Source: Dehalogenimonas lykanthroporepellens BL-DC-9 (lineage in GTDB: Bacteria; Chloroflexota; Dehalococcoidia; Dehalococcoidales; Dehalococcoidaceae). Taken from it: a stretch of 64,000 nucleotides of DNA. Below, one piece after another: positions 55,791-60,816 of the stretch. The stretch covers positions 310,001 through 374,000 of the forward strand of contig CP002084.1 in assembly GCA_000143165.1 (NCBI GenBank). The letters run 5' to 3'. The translations under genes and the position numbers were made by a program. Within the stretch, counting starts at the first letter, position 1. Each line of letters starts with the position of its first letter. The notes beneath the pieces are model-generated. The model was not told where the DNA came from, ran no database searches, and saw only the letters and a list, made by a program, of their open reading frames with translations.

Positions 55791-55818
55791 TTTACCCCGT
55801 AAATATTTATTGTATAAT
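55791..55818 (+). promoter_or_regulatory. promoter of the GH38 gene
   Basis: TTTACC (55791-55796), 16-nt spacer, perfect TATAAT (55813-55818). TSS about 55825, giving a leader of about 40 nt with GGGAGGAG as ribosome-binding site. Confidence 0.55.
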
Positions 55819-55863
55819 GCTAAAACAGCTCACCTTCAAGGTCAACCGGGCAGGGAGGAGAGA

Positions 55864-58458
55864 ATGAAAAATATTTACCTGGTTCCTCATAGTCATTACG
55901 ATGCCGTTTGGGCCTTCACCAAGGAAGATTATTTTTACATAAATATCGAAAAGATATTAAAGCCGGCCATTGAACTGATGGCTGATCCCGGATATCGGTT
56001 TCTGATAGAGCAGGTAGCCCTGCTTGAAGAAATCGAACACCGAAACCCCAGTCTCTTTGCCGATATCAAGAAGTATGCCGCCAGCGGTCAACTGGAAATA
56101 GCCGGTGGTGAATACCTGATGTCCGATACCATGCTTCCCGGCGGGGAAACTCTGGTTCGTCAGATACTGGTCGGGAAAAACTATGCGAGGGATAAACTGG
56201 GCATCGCTGAGTTGCCGGTCATGTGGGGGGCCGACGCTTTCGGTTTTAATGCCCAGATGCCGCAAATCTATCTGAAGTCCGGATACCGATATTTCGCTTT
56301 CCGGCGTGGCGCCACTCGATCGGCGCCGACTGAATTCTGGTGGCAAGGACTGGATGGGAGTCGGATACTTGCTCATTGGATGCCGCTTGGGTATCGTGCC
56401 GGTCTGTTTCTCAACGAACTCCCTGAAAGTTTCCGTCAGCTGGAACCGGTGGCGGCCACCGGCAATATTCTGATGCCCTCCGGGAGTGGTTCGATTCCAC
56501 CCCAACCGGAAACTGCCTCGGTCGTACGCCGGTGGAACCGGCGGCACCGGGATTCTCGGATGATGATTGCCCGGGCCAGGGACTTCTTTCAGGCGCTGGA
56601 GCAGGAAAGCGACAGCCTGGAGGTCAGAATCGGCGAGCAGTATTCCGGCAAGTATTCCAGGGTTTTTCCGCACTGCACCTCATCCCGCATGTGGTTGAAG
56701 CAGAAACAACGCCACTATGAGCAAAAGATTATTTCTGCTGAAAAATGGGTGACCATGGGTTGGCTTTTGGGGGTGCCCTATCCGGTAGACGCCTTCCATG
56801 ACAGTTGGAAGAAGGTTCTCTGGGGCGCGTTTCACGATGTGGCGCCCGGTACCGGCATGGACGAGGGTTATGAAGAGGCTCATCATAATTACAGTTATCT
56901 GGATAGCCACCTCTCCCAGGTACTGATTGAGTTTCGTGAACTGATACAGGACAACCTGACCGGAGCCGGTGACGTGATCGTTTTCAACCCGTTATCCTGG
57001 CCGGTCAGAAACTGGGTGGAGGCCGAACTCAGTTTTGACCGCGGCGTCATCAGGCGCATTGCCGGTCTGGCCAGCAATGGATTAGATACCGAAGTGGAAA
57101 TACTGGAATCAACCCGTTATTCCGATGATTCCTATCATACGGTCAGATTGGGTTTTGTGGCCGAGGTGCCGCCGTTCGGTTACCGCACCTATTCTCTGGT
57201 TCGCAACGGCCTCAAACCAGCCTCCCGTTCCCGGTTGAAGACCCGGGGCAACACCATCCAGAATCAGTTTTTCAAAATGGATATCGACCCCGGCAACGGG
57301 CTGATAGACCTGTATCTGGATGGTGAGCATCTGTGTTTCGGCAATGAACTGGTCGTTGAGGAGGAAACCGGAGACCTTTACTATCACCGCCAGAACATGA
57401 CCGGCGATATTCGTACCGAAAGCGAAGCCGGAGTAACGTTCGGCCGGTTCCGCATGAAGCACTTCGAAATCGCCAAAACCCCCTTGCGCCGGGTGGTCAG
57501 GATGGAGAGTGATTATTATTCCCTCATCTGGCCTTACCGGCTCCAGGACAAGTTACGGCCGGTTCTGTGGCGACATTCCTATCTGTCCGTCTCCAAAACC
57601 ATAATCGTGTATCATGATATACCCCGGATTGATTTCGTCACCACCATTGAAAACCGTCATCCTCAGATGCAACTCAGGCTTAAATTTACCACCGATATCC
57701 AGGCGCCGGAATACACCTCGGAAATTCAGTTCGGTGCTTTGTCACGTTCGGTTAATCTGGTCGGAGAGCCAGCTGAACCGACCGACGTTGAACGGCCTTC
57801 CGGCATCTTCCCTGCGCAGAATTGGGTGGATTACTCCGATAATGAGCGGGGACTGACCTTGATAAACAAGGGCCTGCCGTCGCATGAGGTTCGAGACGGA
57901 GCGGTGTATGTCACCCTGCTACGCTCTATCATGATGCTTTCATCGGACGGTATAACCGGTCCGGCGGTGCCGACTCCCGATGCCCAGGAGTTCAAGAAAT
58001 ATACCTATGAATATTCGGTCTATCCTCACCGCGGAGATTGGCGCCAGGCCAGGTCATACCGGGCGGGTCATGAAGTGAATACCGGCTTGACCGCATTTCA
58101 ACTGCAGTTGTCGCCCCATCGCCGCAAGATTCTGCCGGAAGCGTTTTCATTCATCGAAGCCTCGCCTGACAACATCATCGTCTCGGCCTGTAAAAGGGCT
58201 GAAGACGGCAGTGGTGTCATTCTGAGACTGTACGAAGCCGGCGGCGAGGAAACCGAGGCGGTAATCAGGATGTTCCATCCGGTTAACGGTGCTTCTGCTG
58301 GCATAGAGCCAATGGAGAATGACCTCATCCGCCAGCCCTCGGCAGTAAGGCTGGTGAATTTGATGGAACAGGATATCGGCCCGGTGACCCATGAACAGGG
58401 TCGTATCGTGCTGGAGTTCAAGCCTTTTGAAATTATTAGCCTGAAACTGGTTTTCTAA
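55864..58458 (+). CDS. Glycoside hydrolase family 38 alpha-mannosidase
   Basis: 864 residues from ATG 55864. The N-terminal zinc site of family 38 is seen in VPHSHYDAVW (His9, His11, Asp13), and the nucleophile Asp124 in MWGADAFGFN. The C-terminal half is the usual beta-sandwich region (LGFVAEVPPFGYRTY, FKPFEIISLKL). It removes alpha-mannose, and such enzymes are retained in the cytoplasm when no signal peptide is present, as here. Its presence beside glycosyltransferase and radical SAM genes suggests turnover of a mannose-containing compound (possibly mannosylglycerate-like or a glycoconjugate). Substrate unproven. Confidence 0.9.
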   Translation: MKNIYLVPHSHYDAVWAFTKEDYFYINIEKILKPAIELMADPGYRFLIEQVALLEEIEHRNPSLFADIKKYAASGQLEIAGGEYLMSDTMLPGGETLVRQILVGKNYARDKLGIAELPVMWGADAFGFNAQMPQIYLKSGYRYFAFRRGATRSAPTEFWWQGLDGSRILAHWMPLGYRAGLFLNELPESFRQLEPVAATGNILMPSGSGSIPPQPETASVVRRWNRRHRDSRMMIARARDFFQALEQESDSLEVRIGEQYSGKYSRVFPHCTSSRMWLKQKQRHYEQKIISAEKWVTMGWLLGVPYPVDAFHDSWKKVLWGAFHDVAPGTGMDEGYEEAHHNYSYLDSHLSQVLIEFRELIQDNLTGAGDVIVFNPLSWPVRNWVEAELSFDRGVIRRIAGLASNGLDTEVEILESTRYSDDSYHTVRLGFVAEVPPFGYRTYSLVRNGLKPASRSRLKTRGNTIQNQFFKMDIDPGNGLIDLYLDGEHLCFGNELVVEEETGDLYYHRQNMTGDIRTESEAGVTFGRFRMKHFEIAKTPLRRVVRMESDYYSLIWPYRLQDKLRPVLWRHSYLSVSKTIIVYHDIPRIDFVTTIENRHPQMQLRLKFTTDIQAPEYTSEIQFGALSRSVNLVGEPAEPTDVERPSGIFPAQNWVDYSDNERGLTLINKGLPSHEVRDGAVYVTLLRSIMMLSSDGITGPAVPTPDAQEFKKYTYEYSVYPHRGDWRQARSYRAGHEVNTGLTAFQLQLSPHRRKILPEAFSFIEASPDNIIVSACKRAEDGSGVILRLYEAGGEETEAVIRMFHPVNGASAGIEPMENDLIRQPSAVRLVNLMEQDIGPVTHEQGRIVLEFKPFEIISLKLVF

Positions 58459-58469
58459 CCTTTTATTCT

Positions 58470-58504
58470 GTTGCCGACACGGGCAACCGGTTATCGCCGG
58501 CTCA
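58470..58504 (-). promoter_or_regulatory. candidate SECIS element following an in-frame TGA
   Basis: On the minus strand the TGA of the arsS-like gene (58504-58502) is followed after 14 nt by GTTGCC (58487-58482), loop CGTGTC, GGCAAC (58475-58470): a 6-bp stem with G as second loop base, about 21 nt from the TGA. Size and distance agree with bacterial SECIS hairpins. The hairpin has no T-run, so it is not an obvious terminator. Confidence 0.4.
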
Positions 58505-59473
58505 GCCGCTACCGGCGCCGGCGGCACAACCGAAACAATGGTCAGCAAATCTTATTTTTCGGCGGCATAATGCCTCGTAGTCGAAATCGAAAATAGTCTG
58601 CGATGCCGGTTCATCCAGTGTCATTCGCAATGCCTGATTGAAGTCACAGTCATACAACTTCCCATCCGGGCCGACGCTTATCGTGTGGCGGCACACAGCG
58701 GCAGTGATGGTGTCGGGGCTGGCGGCCTCCGCCAGTGTATCCAGATACTCCTCCAGACGGCCACTTGAATGCAGATAAGCTGACTGACGGCCGACAGGCA
58801 TATTGGTGATACTGAGAAGCTCGTTGAACTCGATGCCATAGTGGTTGAGAGTCTGCCGGTATTCGTTTTCCAGAGGCAGTCTGCGTGCTACCGATATCGG
58901 TCCCTCCTGATTGGTTACCAGTTTCAGCACCAGTCCGGGGATTCGTCCGTATCCGGCGTCGCGCAGTCTTTTCAGGGATTCGATACTTTTAGCAAATACC
59001 CGCCGGCCTCGGATAGCATCGGTGACCGTCGGCTGGCAACTGGGCAGGGATGCCAGTATTTCCACCCGGTGGGCGGCGAAAAACCCGGGCAGATGAGCCA
59101 GCGAACGTCCGCCGACGCTATCGCCATCGAGAGTGACTGTCAGGTTGTGACGGACTACAATTCTTTTACCCATTTCGCTCAAGGCTGATACCAGGGATTC
59201 GAATAAGGGATTCAGCTCCGGAGCGCCGCCGGTGATATCAACTGTGGTGATGCCGGGTTCCCGCCTCAGGAGTTCCAGACAGGCGGATAAAATTCCATGT
59301 CCCATCTGGTCGCCAGCTTCCCTGGAACCGACAACATGACAATGTCGGCACGATTGATTACAGCGGGTGGTGATGTTCAACCACAGGGTGTCGATACACT
59401 TCGGTTCGACGTCCGGTTTGACCTCAGCCAGCCATTCGGTGAAGCGGGATGAACAGGCCATGTTGTTACCCAT
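58502..59473 (-). CDS. arsS: ArsS-type radical SAM protein (possible selenoprotein)
   Basis: 323 residues to the TGA; ATG 59473 overlaps the glycosyltransferase end, and ATG 59461 is an alternative. Radical SAM cluster Cys38, Cys42, Cys45 (TRCNQSCRHCHV); DITGGAPELNP and the C-terminal DUF3641-like Cys domain with AVCRHTIS, DCDFNQAL and HCFGCAAGAGSG. Relatives end in a GSS-Cys-G pattern, sometimes with selenocysteine. Here the TGA sits exactly at that position, and 12 more codons follow to TAA at 58463. The family is tied to arsenosugar synthesis with ArsM, which is not seen here. Confidence 0.85.
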   Translation of the reverse strand: MGNNMACSSRFTEWLAEVKPDVEPKCIDTLWLNITTRCNQSCRHCHVVGSREAGDQMGHGILSACLELLRREPGITTVDITGGAPELNPLFESLVSALSEMGKRIVVRHNLTVTLDGDSVGGRSLAHLPGFFAAHRVEILASLPSCQPTVTDAIRGRRVFAKSIESLKRLRDAGYGRIPGLVLKLVTNQEGPISVARRLPLENEYRQTLNHYGIEFNELLSITNMPVGRQSAYLHSSGRLEEYLDTLAEAASPDTITAAVCRHTISVGPDGKLYDCDFNQALRMTLDEPASQTIFDFDYEALCRRKIRFADHCFGCAAGAGSG

Positions 59474-60809
59474 AAACGACATCGGTGGTTTTCTCAGTTT
59501 GAATGGCAGATAATCCTTTTTCGAACTCTCTCCAGTCATCGACGGTATCGATGTCGGCCAGTTCGGTCAGTCTGTGGATGGACATTCCGAGTTCTTTCGC
59601 CCGGGCTGAGGTTGCCGCCAGAACCTCGCCGGAACTCCACGGGATGTCTTTGAAAAGTTTCGGGGCATCTCGCCGCAGTCCGATTAGATAATAACCTCCG
59701 TCCGGTGACGGCCCGATGACAATGTCACTGTCGTTGAGACCGTTAAGCGCCTGCTCCAGTATCGCCGTATCAATGGCCGGTACATCTGAAGCCGTTATTA
59801 TCACTTTTTTGAATCCGGCTTTAAAGGCATCCGCGAATCCTTTCTCCAGCCGTGCGCCCAGGTCTCCTTCCGGCTGAATGACTACGGCGTATCGGTGGCC
59901 GGACCAACGGCGCAGACCCGGGGCATCGGCCGCCGAGGCGGCGTAAATCCTTTTTTCGATATGAAGCTGTAGTTCATCGACCGCCGCAAACAGCGTTTCG
60001 ACACAGCGGGAGTATATCGCCGTTGCCTGGTCGGCGCCTAAACCGGCCGCCAGCCGGGTCTTGACTCTGCCGGGTATCGGCAGGCGGCACATCATCAGCA
60101 CACAGGCTTGTCCAGCCCGATTGTTGCCTTTTTCATAAACCGCCGCCAGTTTTCCGGCCGGCGTGCCCAGCATGTACCGCAACGTCAACCAGGCATTTTT
60201 CAGTGATTGTCTTACGGGTCCGGTTCTGTCGAAACGGCGCGCTGAAGTAACTACACTGAGCTGGAAGCGGCGGATCGGGCTGATGCGGCTGGCTTTTTTC
60301 AACAATTCAAAGTCTTCGAACAGCCGCTGATTCGGGAAACCACCGATATCTTTAAATAATGATTTTCTGATGGTTATCCCCGAATCCCCGAACCGGATTC
60401 GGCCCCGGTGGCGGCGCGTGTACCAGCTGATTATCCTTAAAAACCAGTGAGACCGGTCGAAATCCAAGGCGAAAGTCCCGATATTGTTTTTCGGGTTTTG
60501 GAAAAATGAGTCCAGGAATTCTCCCGTCTGTCCGGGTAGCCGTGTATCGGCATGGAGAAAAAGGAGGATGTCTCCGGTTGCCAGATTGCCTCCGACGTTA
60601 CATTGCCGGCCACGCCCGGCCGGCGCGACCTTAATCAGGCAGACTCCCATTTTACGGACGATATCCGGCGTCCGGTCGGTAGAACCGCCGTCGGCTATGA
60701 TTATCTCAGCGTCGGGCAGAACCGTTCTGACATTTTGAACACCGCGCCCGATTAATTCTTCTTCGTTCAGCGTCGGAATGACTACCGAAAACCTCAGCGG
60801 TTCGTTCAT
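59466..60809 (-). CDS. Fused glycosyltransferase (TIGR04283-like + TIGR04282-like)
   Basis: 447 residues from ATG 60809. Residues about 5-225 are a GT2-type domain (FSVVIPTLNEEELIG, DGGSTDRTPDIV, HADTRLP, GDSGITIRKSLF). Residues about 230-435 are the DUF2064/TIGR04282 nucleotidyltransferase-like domain (RLPIPGRVKTRLAAGLG, ASDVPAIDTAIL, GPSPDGGYYLIGLR). Both types occur together in arsenosugar-like gene sets beside ArsS, usually as separate genes; here they are fused. A TATAAT box lies 7 nt before the ATG. Donor and acceptor sugars are not known. Confidence 0.85.
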   Translation of the reverse strand: MNEPLRFSVVIPTLNEEELIGRGVQNVRTVLPDAEIIIADGGSTDRTPDIVRKMGVCLIKVAPAGRGRQCNVGGNLATGDILLFLHADTRLPGQTGEFLDSFFQNPKNNIGTFALDFDRSHWFLRIISWYTRRHRGRIRFGDSGITIRKSLFKDIGGFPNQRLFEDFELLKKASRISPIRRFQLSVVTSARRFDRTGPVRQSLKNAWLTLRYMLGTPAGKLAAVYEKGNNRAGQACVLMMCRLPIPGRVKTRLAAGLGADQATAIYSRCVETLFAAVDELQLHIEKRIYAASAADAPGLRRWSGHRYAVVIQPEGDLGARLEKGFADAFKAGFKKVIITASDVPAIDTAILEQALNGLNDSDIVIGPSPDGGYYLIGLRRDAPKLFKDIPWSSGEVLAATSARAKELGMSIHRLTELADIDTVDDWREFEKGLSAIQTEKTTDVVYG

Positions 60810-60816
60810 CTTCAAG

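Follow-up and report, generated by a model that had tools for sequence, protein, structure and literature searches.

A predicted selenocysteine in place of the last invariant cysteine of the radical SAM protein ArsS in Dehalogenimonas lykanthroporepellens

Introduction

TIGR04167 has been listed as a family of predicted selenoproteins (PMC13188914, PMC9312934), with GxxU as the predicted selenoprotein motif and AAR34688.1 as an example (PMC13188914). In Synechocystis, according to work cited in PMC8552651, arsenosugar synthesis involves the family protein SsArsS together with SsArsM. The published model of the bacterial SECIS element (bSECIS) has a loop of 3-9 nt, a stem of 4-16 bp, a G in the first two loop positions and a distance of 16-37 nt from the UGA (PMC13188914). 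The sel genes, as well as Sec in SelD and in formate dehydrogenase (FDH), are reported for Dehalogenimonas in two genome papers (PMC4918011; PMC13390414), and a term search of these two papers returned no match for 'radical SAM'.

Here we analyze a stretch of 64,000 nucleotides of D. lykanthroporepellens BL-DC-9 (the window), which lies in a single contig of 1,686,510 bases. We conclude that the window very probably codes for an ArsS of organoarsenic (arsenosugar-type) synthesis that has Sec in place of its last invariant C-terminal Cys. The gene thus predicted adds one member to an already predicted selenoprotein family.

Results

Reading frame of arsS

On the minus strand, the ORF that opens with the ATG at 59539 comprises 345 codons and reaches the TGA at 58504-58502. 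The likelier start is the ATG at 59473, in an 8-nt overlap with the end of the upstream gene (ATGGGTAA); residue numbers below follow the 59539 reading. An earlier note, made from the sequence alone, had placed the TGA directly after HCFGCAAGAGSG and counted 12 sense codons from there to a TAA. On rereading of the minus strand its coordinates, peptide, codon count and hairpin were all correct. If the TGA (residue 346; 58502..58504, minus strand) is read as a residue, the protein gains AGDNRLPVSATE and ends at the TAA at 58465-58463; this tail with its stop occupies 58463..58501 (minus strand) and contains the invariant Gly of the family at position +2 from the TGA. The whole CDS, with the TGA read as Sec, spans 58463..59473 (minus strand), as judged from the profile matches described below, the read-through translation and the context of the start.

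Just 4 nt separate the arsS TAA from the end of a convergent mannosidase-like gene (55810-58458, plus strand). This gene resembles mannosylglycerate hydrolase, but its 283.6 bits fall far short of the equivalog cut-off (1138), and a homolog of it adjoins arsS at two other loci (L148 and L149).

Protein family and arsenic gene context

The protein scored 360.1 bits against the NCBIfam model TIGR04167, 'arsenosugar biosynthesis radical SAM (seleno)protein ArsS' (cut-off 300), with residues 45-348 matching positions 3-301 of the 303 in the model. It also matched DUF3641 (141 bits) and the Radical_SAM Pfam family, which bears out the ArsS/DUF3641 identity suggested in the earlier note; the family C-terminus given there, GC-x-AG-x-GSS-Cys-x-G, proved correct as well. 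The closest named homologs belong to Dehalococcoidia. Relatives found in a plasmid search were all below 60% identity, several of them annotated with the ArsS name of the TIGR04167 model.

In an alignment of 39 proteins, made with TGA translated as Cys, the invariant positions included C60, C64, C67, C283, C298, C335, C338, residue 346 and G348. The protein therefore has both the CxxxCxxC radical SAM motif (C60-x3-C64-x2-C67; 59339..59362, minus strand) and the Cys-rich C-terminus of DUF3641, with the set C283-x9-G293-x4-C298 ... C335-x2-C338 (58526..58693, minus strand).

Upstream, and overlapping the start of arsS, lies a fused glycosyltransferase gene (59466..60815, minus strand) with profile matches to TIGR04283 and TIGR04282, both of which are named arsenosugar biosynthesis glycosyltransferases. 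A full-length homolog of the fused gene adjoins arsS in three other genomes of the genus (G006, G007 and G010; the fusion is profile-confirmed in G010), and a stand-alone TIGR04282 gene adjoins arsS in two more (G079 and G121). The arsM gene, at 1393565-1394383 of the contig (357.9 bits, cut-off 263), is not adjacent to arsS and lies about 1 Mb away. The arsenosugar gene context is thus present, with arsM elsewhere in the genome.

At three loci (L147, L108 and L113), in one genome of the same class as the window and in two Omnitrophota, the ArsS frame runs on for about 350 residues with a YYG...DLKTSACC segment. This segment, recognized by eye as the start of ArsM, makes these genes apparent in-frame ArsS-ArsM fusions. 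Together, the gene context and the apparent fusions point to the order of steps, ArsM and then ArsS, reported for Synechocystis in work cited in PMC8552651.

The Cys/TGA column among homologs

We observed at the column of residue 346 in 97 homologs the codons TGC (52), TGT (28) and TGA (17). These homologs came from a scan of genome contigs (80) and from genus and phylum searches (17); two pairs were identical, which leaves 95 distinct sequences. The TGA therefore falls, as the earlier note claimed, exactly on the Cys/Sec position, with Cys in 80 of the 97 and TGA in the rest. The note had also said that close homologs with TAA or TAG at this position and no downstream Cys would refute Sec; none of the 97 had either codon.

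The 17 TGA genes comprised four from the genus, the window's gene included, nine from the Chloroflexota family f40, three from Nitrospirota and one from Bacillota. In a tree built without the column of residue 346, the Cys/TGA label needed five changes, with at least four forced by well-supported branches. The genus clade was the sister of Cys-bearing Dehalococcoidia.

An ordinary stop, with the terminal Cys lost in this lineage and the protein ending in ...GAGSG, would cost just the last 13 residues, and a protein so truncated could stay active. Also, more of the long ORFs in the window end in TGA than in any other stop (19 of 38), and the hairpin behind it is thermodynamically unremarkable in isolation. 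Nonetheless, we consider this reading very improbable. All four genus members keep TGA, never TAA or TAG, as well as the Gly at +2 and a hairpin with a CGTG loop at equal spacing, even though the other three proteins are so diverged as to have only 164-177 identities with the window's ArsS over 318-342 residues. Besides, the Sec machinery is present, and no homolog shows anything but Cys or TGA at this position.

Two further readings have a negligible probability. A Cys codon, TGC or TGT, is one base away from TGA and could have been misread by sequencing or mutated in a decaying gene, but relatives have TGA as well (three further genomes of the genus and nine from a different Chloroflexota family), and the arsS frame is intact and scores above the equivalog cut-off. 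Some UGA readthrough occurs in many bacteria, and the TGA could be read as another residue (e.g., Trp) by leaky readthrough or general recoding; however, roughly one in two long ORFs of the window terminates at TGA, so that codon is not generally recoded, homologs have Cys in the aligned position, and a dedicated set of Sec genes exists. We therefore rejected all three of these rival readings. The UGA of arsS is almost certainly a Sec codon, judging from these sequence comparisons.

The candidate SECIS hairpin

The candidate SECIS element (58470..58487, minus strand) has a 6-bp stem, GTTGCC/GGCAAC, and a 6-nt loop, CGTGTC. The stem starts 14 nt and the loop 20 nt after the TGA. This confirms the hairpin that the earlier note had read by eye, and as RNA (loop CGUGUC) it agrees with the published bSECIS rules. 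Since the tail after Sec has 12 codons, the hairpin lies wholly within the CDS.

Of the TGA trinucleotides in the window, 5.4% are followed by a bSECIS-like hairpin whose stem has 6 or more Watson-Crick pairs, and 15.7% if 5 pairs suffice; therefore, the arsS hairpin by itself is weak evidence. Hairpins with a CGTG loop follow only 0.25% of these trinucleotides. Single-sequence folding of a 42-nt stretch gave an alternative structure at -12.6 kcal/mol (z = -0.98) and did not single out the hairpin, and RNAfold z-scores were uninformative; the MFE fold of a 75-nt stretch does include the hairpin. A search of Rfam at the hairpin found no family, only one chance match of 16.7 bits compared to a gathering score of 36. 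What lifts it above chance is that relatives conserve the hairpin along with the TGA and the Gly that follows.

The other three genus members have, at equal distance, ACTGCC-CGTGTA-GGCAGT, CTGCC-CGTGCC-GGCAG and ACTGCC-CGTGCC-GGCAGT, with two stem pairs of the genus hairpins altered on both sides. Covariation among the four was suggestive only, not significant (68 of 500 shuffles). Beyond the genus, the loops were CGTGA in the nine f40 genes, CGTGT in L127 and CGTGG in L081; altogether, 15 of the 17 TGA genes, across three phyla, had a CGTG-loop hairpin at 19-25 nt. Of the 55 inner-stem cells in the 11 distinct CGTG hairpins, 54 were paired despite differing stem sequences, with stem changes that compensate each other, and none of 10,000 arm shuffles did as well, a count that leans towards pairing and a shuffle figure that is inflated, as the hairpins had been chosen by pairing. 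The arms were split by hand for this count, as MAFFT misplaced the 3' arms across lineages, whose loop lengths differ. Conservation of the f40 hairpin may owe partly to coding constraint, because the reading frame of a TIGR04282 gene overlaps it (L152).

We also observed that the terminating stop falls inside the apical loop in the f40 genes (L136-L145; CCG-TGA in the loop CGTGA), that in L026 a terminating TAG stands at the end of the loop, and that in L089 and L127 the hairpin lies wholly past the stop codon. The SECIS of these genes is therefore partly or wholly outside the CDS.

The SECIS candidates of SelD had mostly CGGG-type loops in f40 and neighboring families and GGGAC in the genome of the window. 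Since these loops differ, CGTG is seemingly no general requirement of SelB in the Chloroflexota lineages checked. It is conceivable, though we think it rather unlikely, that ArsS selenoprotein genes carry a SECIS type of their own (loop CGUG) across Chloroflexota, Nitrospirota and Bacillota, unlike the SelD SECIS of the Chloroflexota checked. If so, either Sec would be the old state of ArsS, repeatedly lost to Cys, or the gene would have moved together with its SECIS.

Selenocysteine machinery

The earlier note had asked for the sel genes elsewhere in the genome. All were found: selC (tRNA-Sec), selD, selA and selB stand in a row at about 1469900-1474350 of the contig. Downstream of selB, a gene that is transposase-like by sequence (L003:12686-13957, minus strand) is split into two adjacent ORFs (189 and 210 aa) that look like the outcome of a frameshift.

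Like arsS, selD (...SAYSG-U-AAKIG) and fdnG, the other genes of this genome found to contain a TGA, have it in frame and with possible downstream hairpins. One SelB would have to serve all three genes, whose candidate apical loops differ: GGGAC in selD and AGTTT or similar in fdnG, compared to CGTG in arsS.

Among Chloroflexota, selA was above the cut-off in 13 of 13 genomes with TGA-ArsS. Four genomes had Cys-ArsS; G231 and G301 had selA, while G188 and G079, the latter holding the nearest Cys-ArsS relative (L140), were without it. Three genomes of the sister genus (G001-G003) had neither ArsS at the search threshold nor selA. Within the genus itself, ArsS was lacking in G004, G005, G008 and G009. 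The association of selA with TGA-ArsS is supportive and no formal test, because the genomes compared are kin.

Discussion

We propose that SelB bound to the hairpin would deliver Sec-tRNA to the UGA of arsS, and that translation would end 12 codons past Sec, at the TAA. In the enzyme, a [4Fe-4S] cluster held by C60, C64 and C67 would cleave SAM, the 5'-deoxyadenosyl radical would be coupled to methylated As(III) made by ArsM, and the fused glycosyltransferase would act next. This predicted arsenic chemistry is, in our estimate, likely for the window's ArsS.

The invariant C283-x9-G293-x4-C298 fits the motif CX9-15GX4C of twitch/SPASM radical SAM enzymes, and C335-x2-C338 would complete the ligand set of an auxiliary cluster, as in BtrN. 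The fold of the predicted model matched SkfB (Z 20.1), anSME (Z 17.6), BtrN (Z 15.4) and SuiB, but viperin-like enzymes matched too (Z about 16). These four Cys may together hold a single auxiliary [4Fe-4S] cluster of the twitch type. Since they would already complete it, Sec346, eight residues on, would be left as a free selenol near the cluster, not as its ligand, and would most likely bind or reduce the arsenic substrate. The mean pLDDT of the model is 85 overall but falls to a block mean of 55 near residue 346, and because of that poor segment we can only infer the role of this residue; going by motif spacing and related enzymes, we give the free selenol an even chance.

If the Sec reading holds, ArsS would be a third Dehalogenimonas selenoprotein beside SelD and formate dehydrogenase, in a genus of obligate dechlorinators, which suggests a capacity to synthesize complex organoarsenicals in some Dehalogenimonas. 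If gene calling ends arsS at the TGA, an invariant, maybe catalytic, residue is cut off.

Compared to the described TIGR04167 (rSAM_SeCys/ArsS) family, the protein of the window belongs to the same equivalog, with a C-terminal GxxU (here GSGU) and a hairpin directly downstream. It differs from the example of the family in being a Dehalogenimonas member with a tail of 12 codons after Sec. In most species the homologs of TIGR04167 carry Cys. For example, the Dehalococcoidia homologs L055, L056 and L140 have the radical SAM core and the C-terminal Cys set seen here, and the Cys-form L151 has a TIGR04282 gene next door. These three homologs, as well as the Synechocystis SsArsS (as cited in PMC8552651), are of the Cys form, whereas the ArsS of the window would have Sec. 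Such Sec/Cys pairs of ArsS within one phylum lend themselves naturally to a comparison of what residue 346 does.
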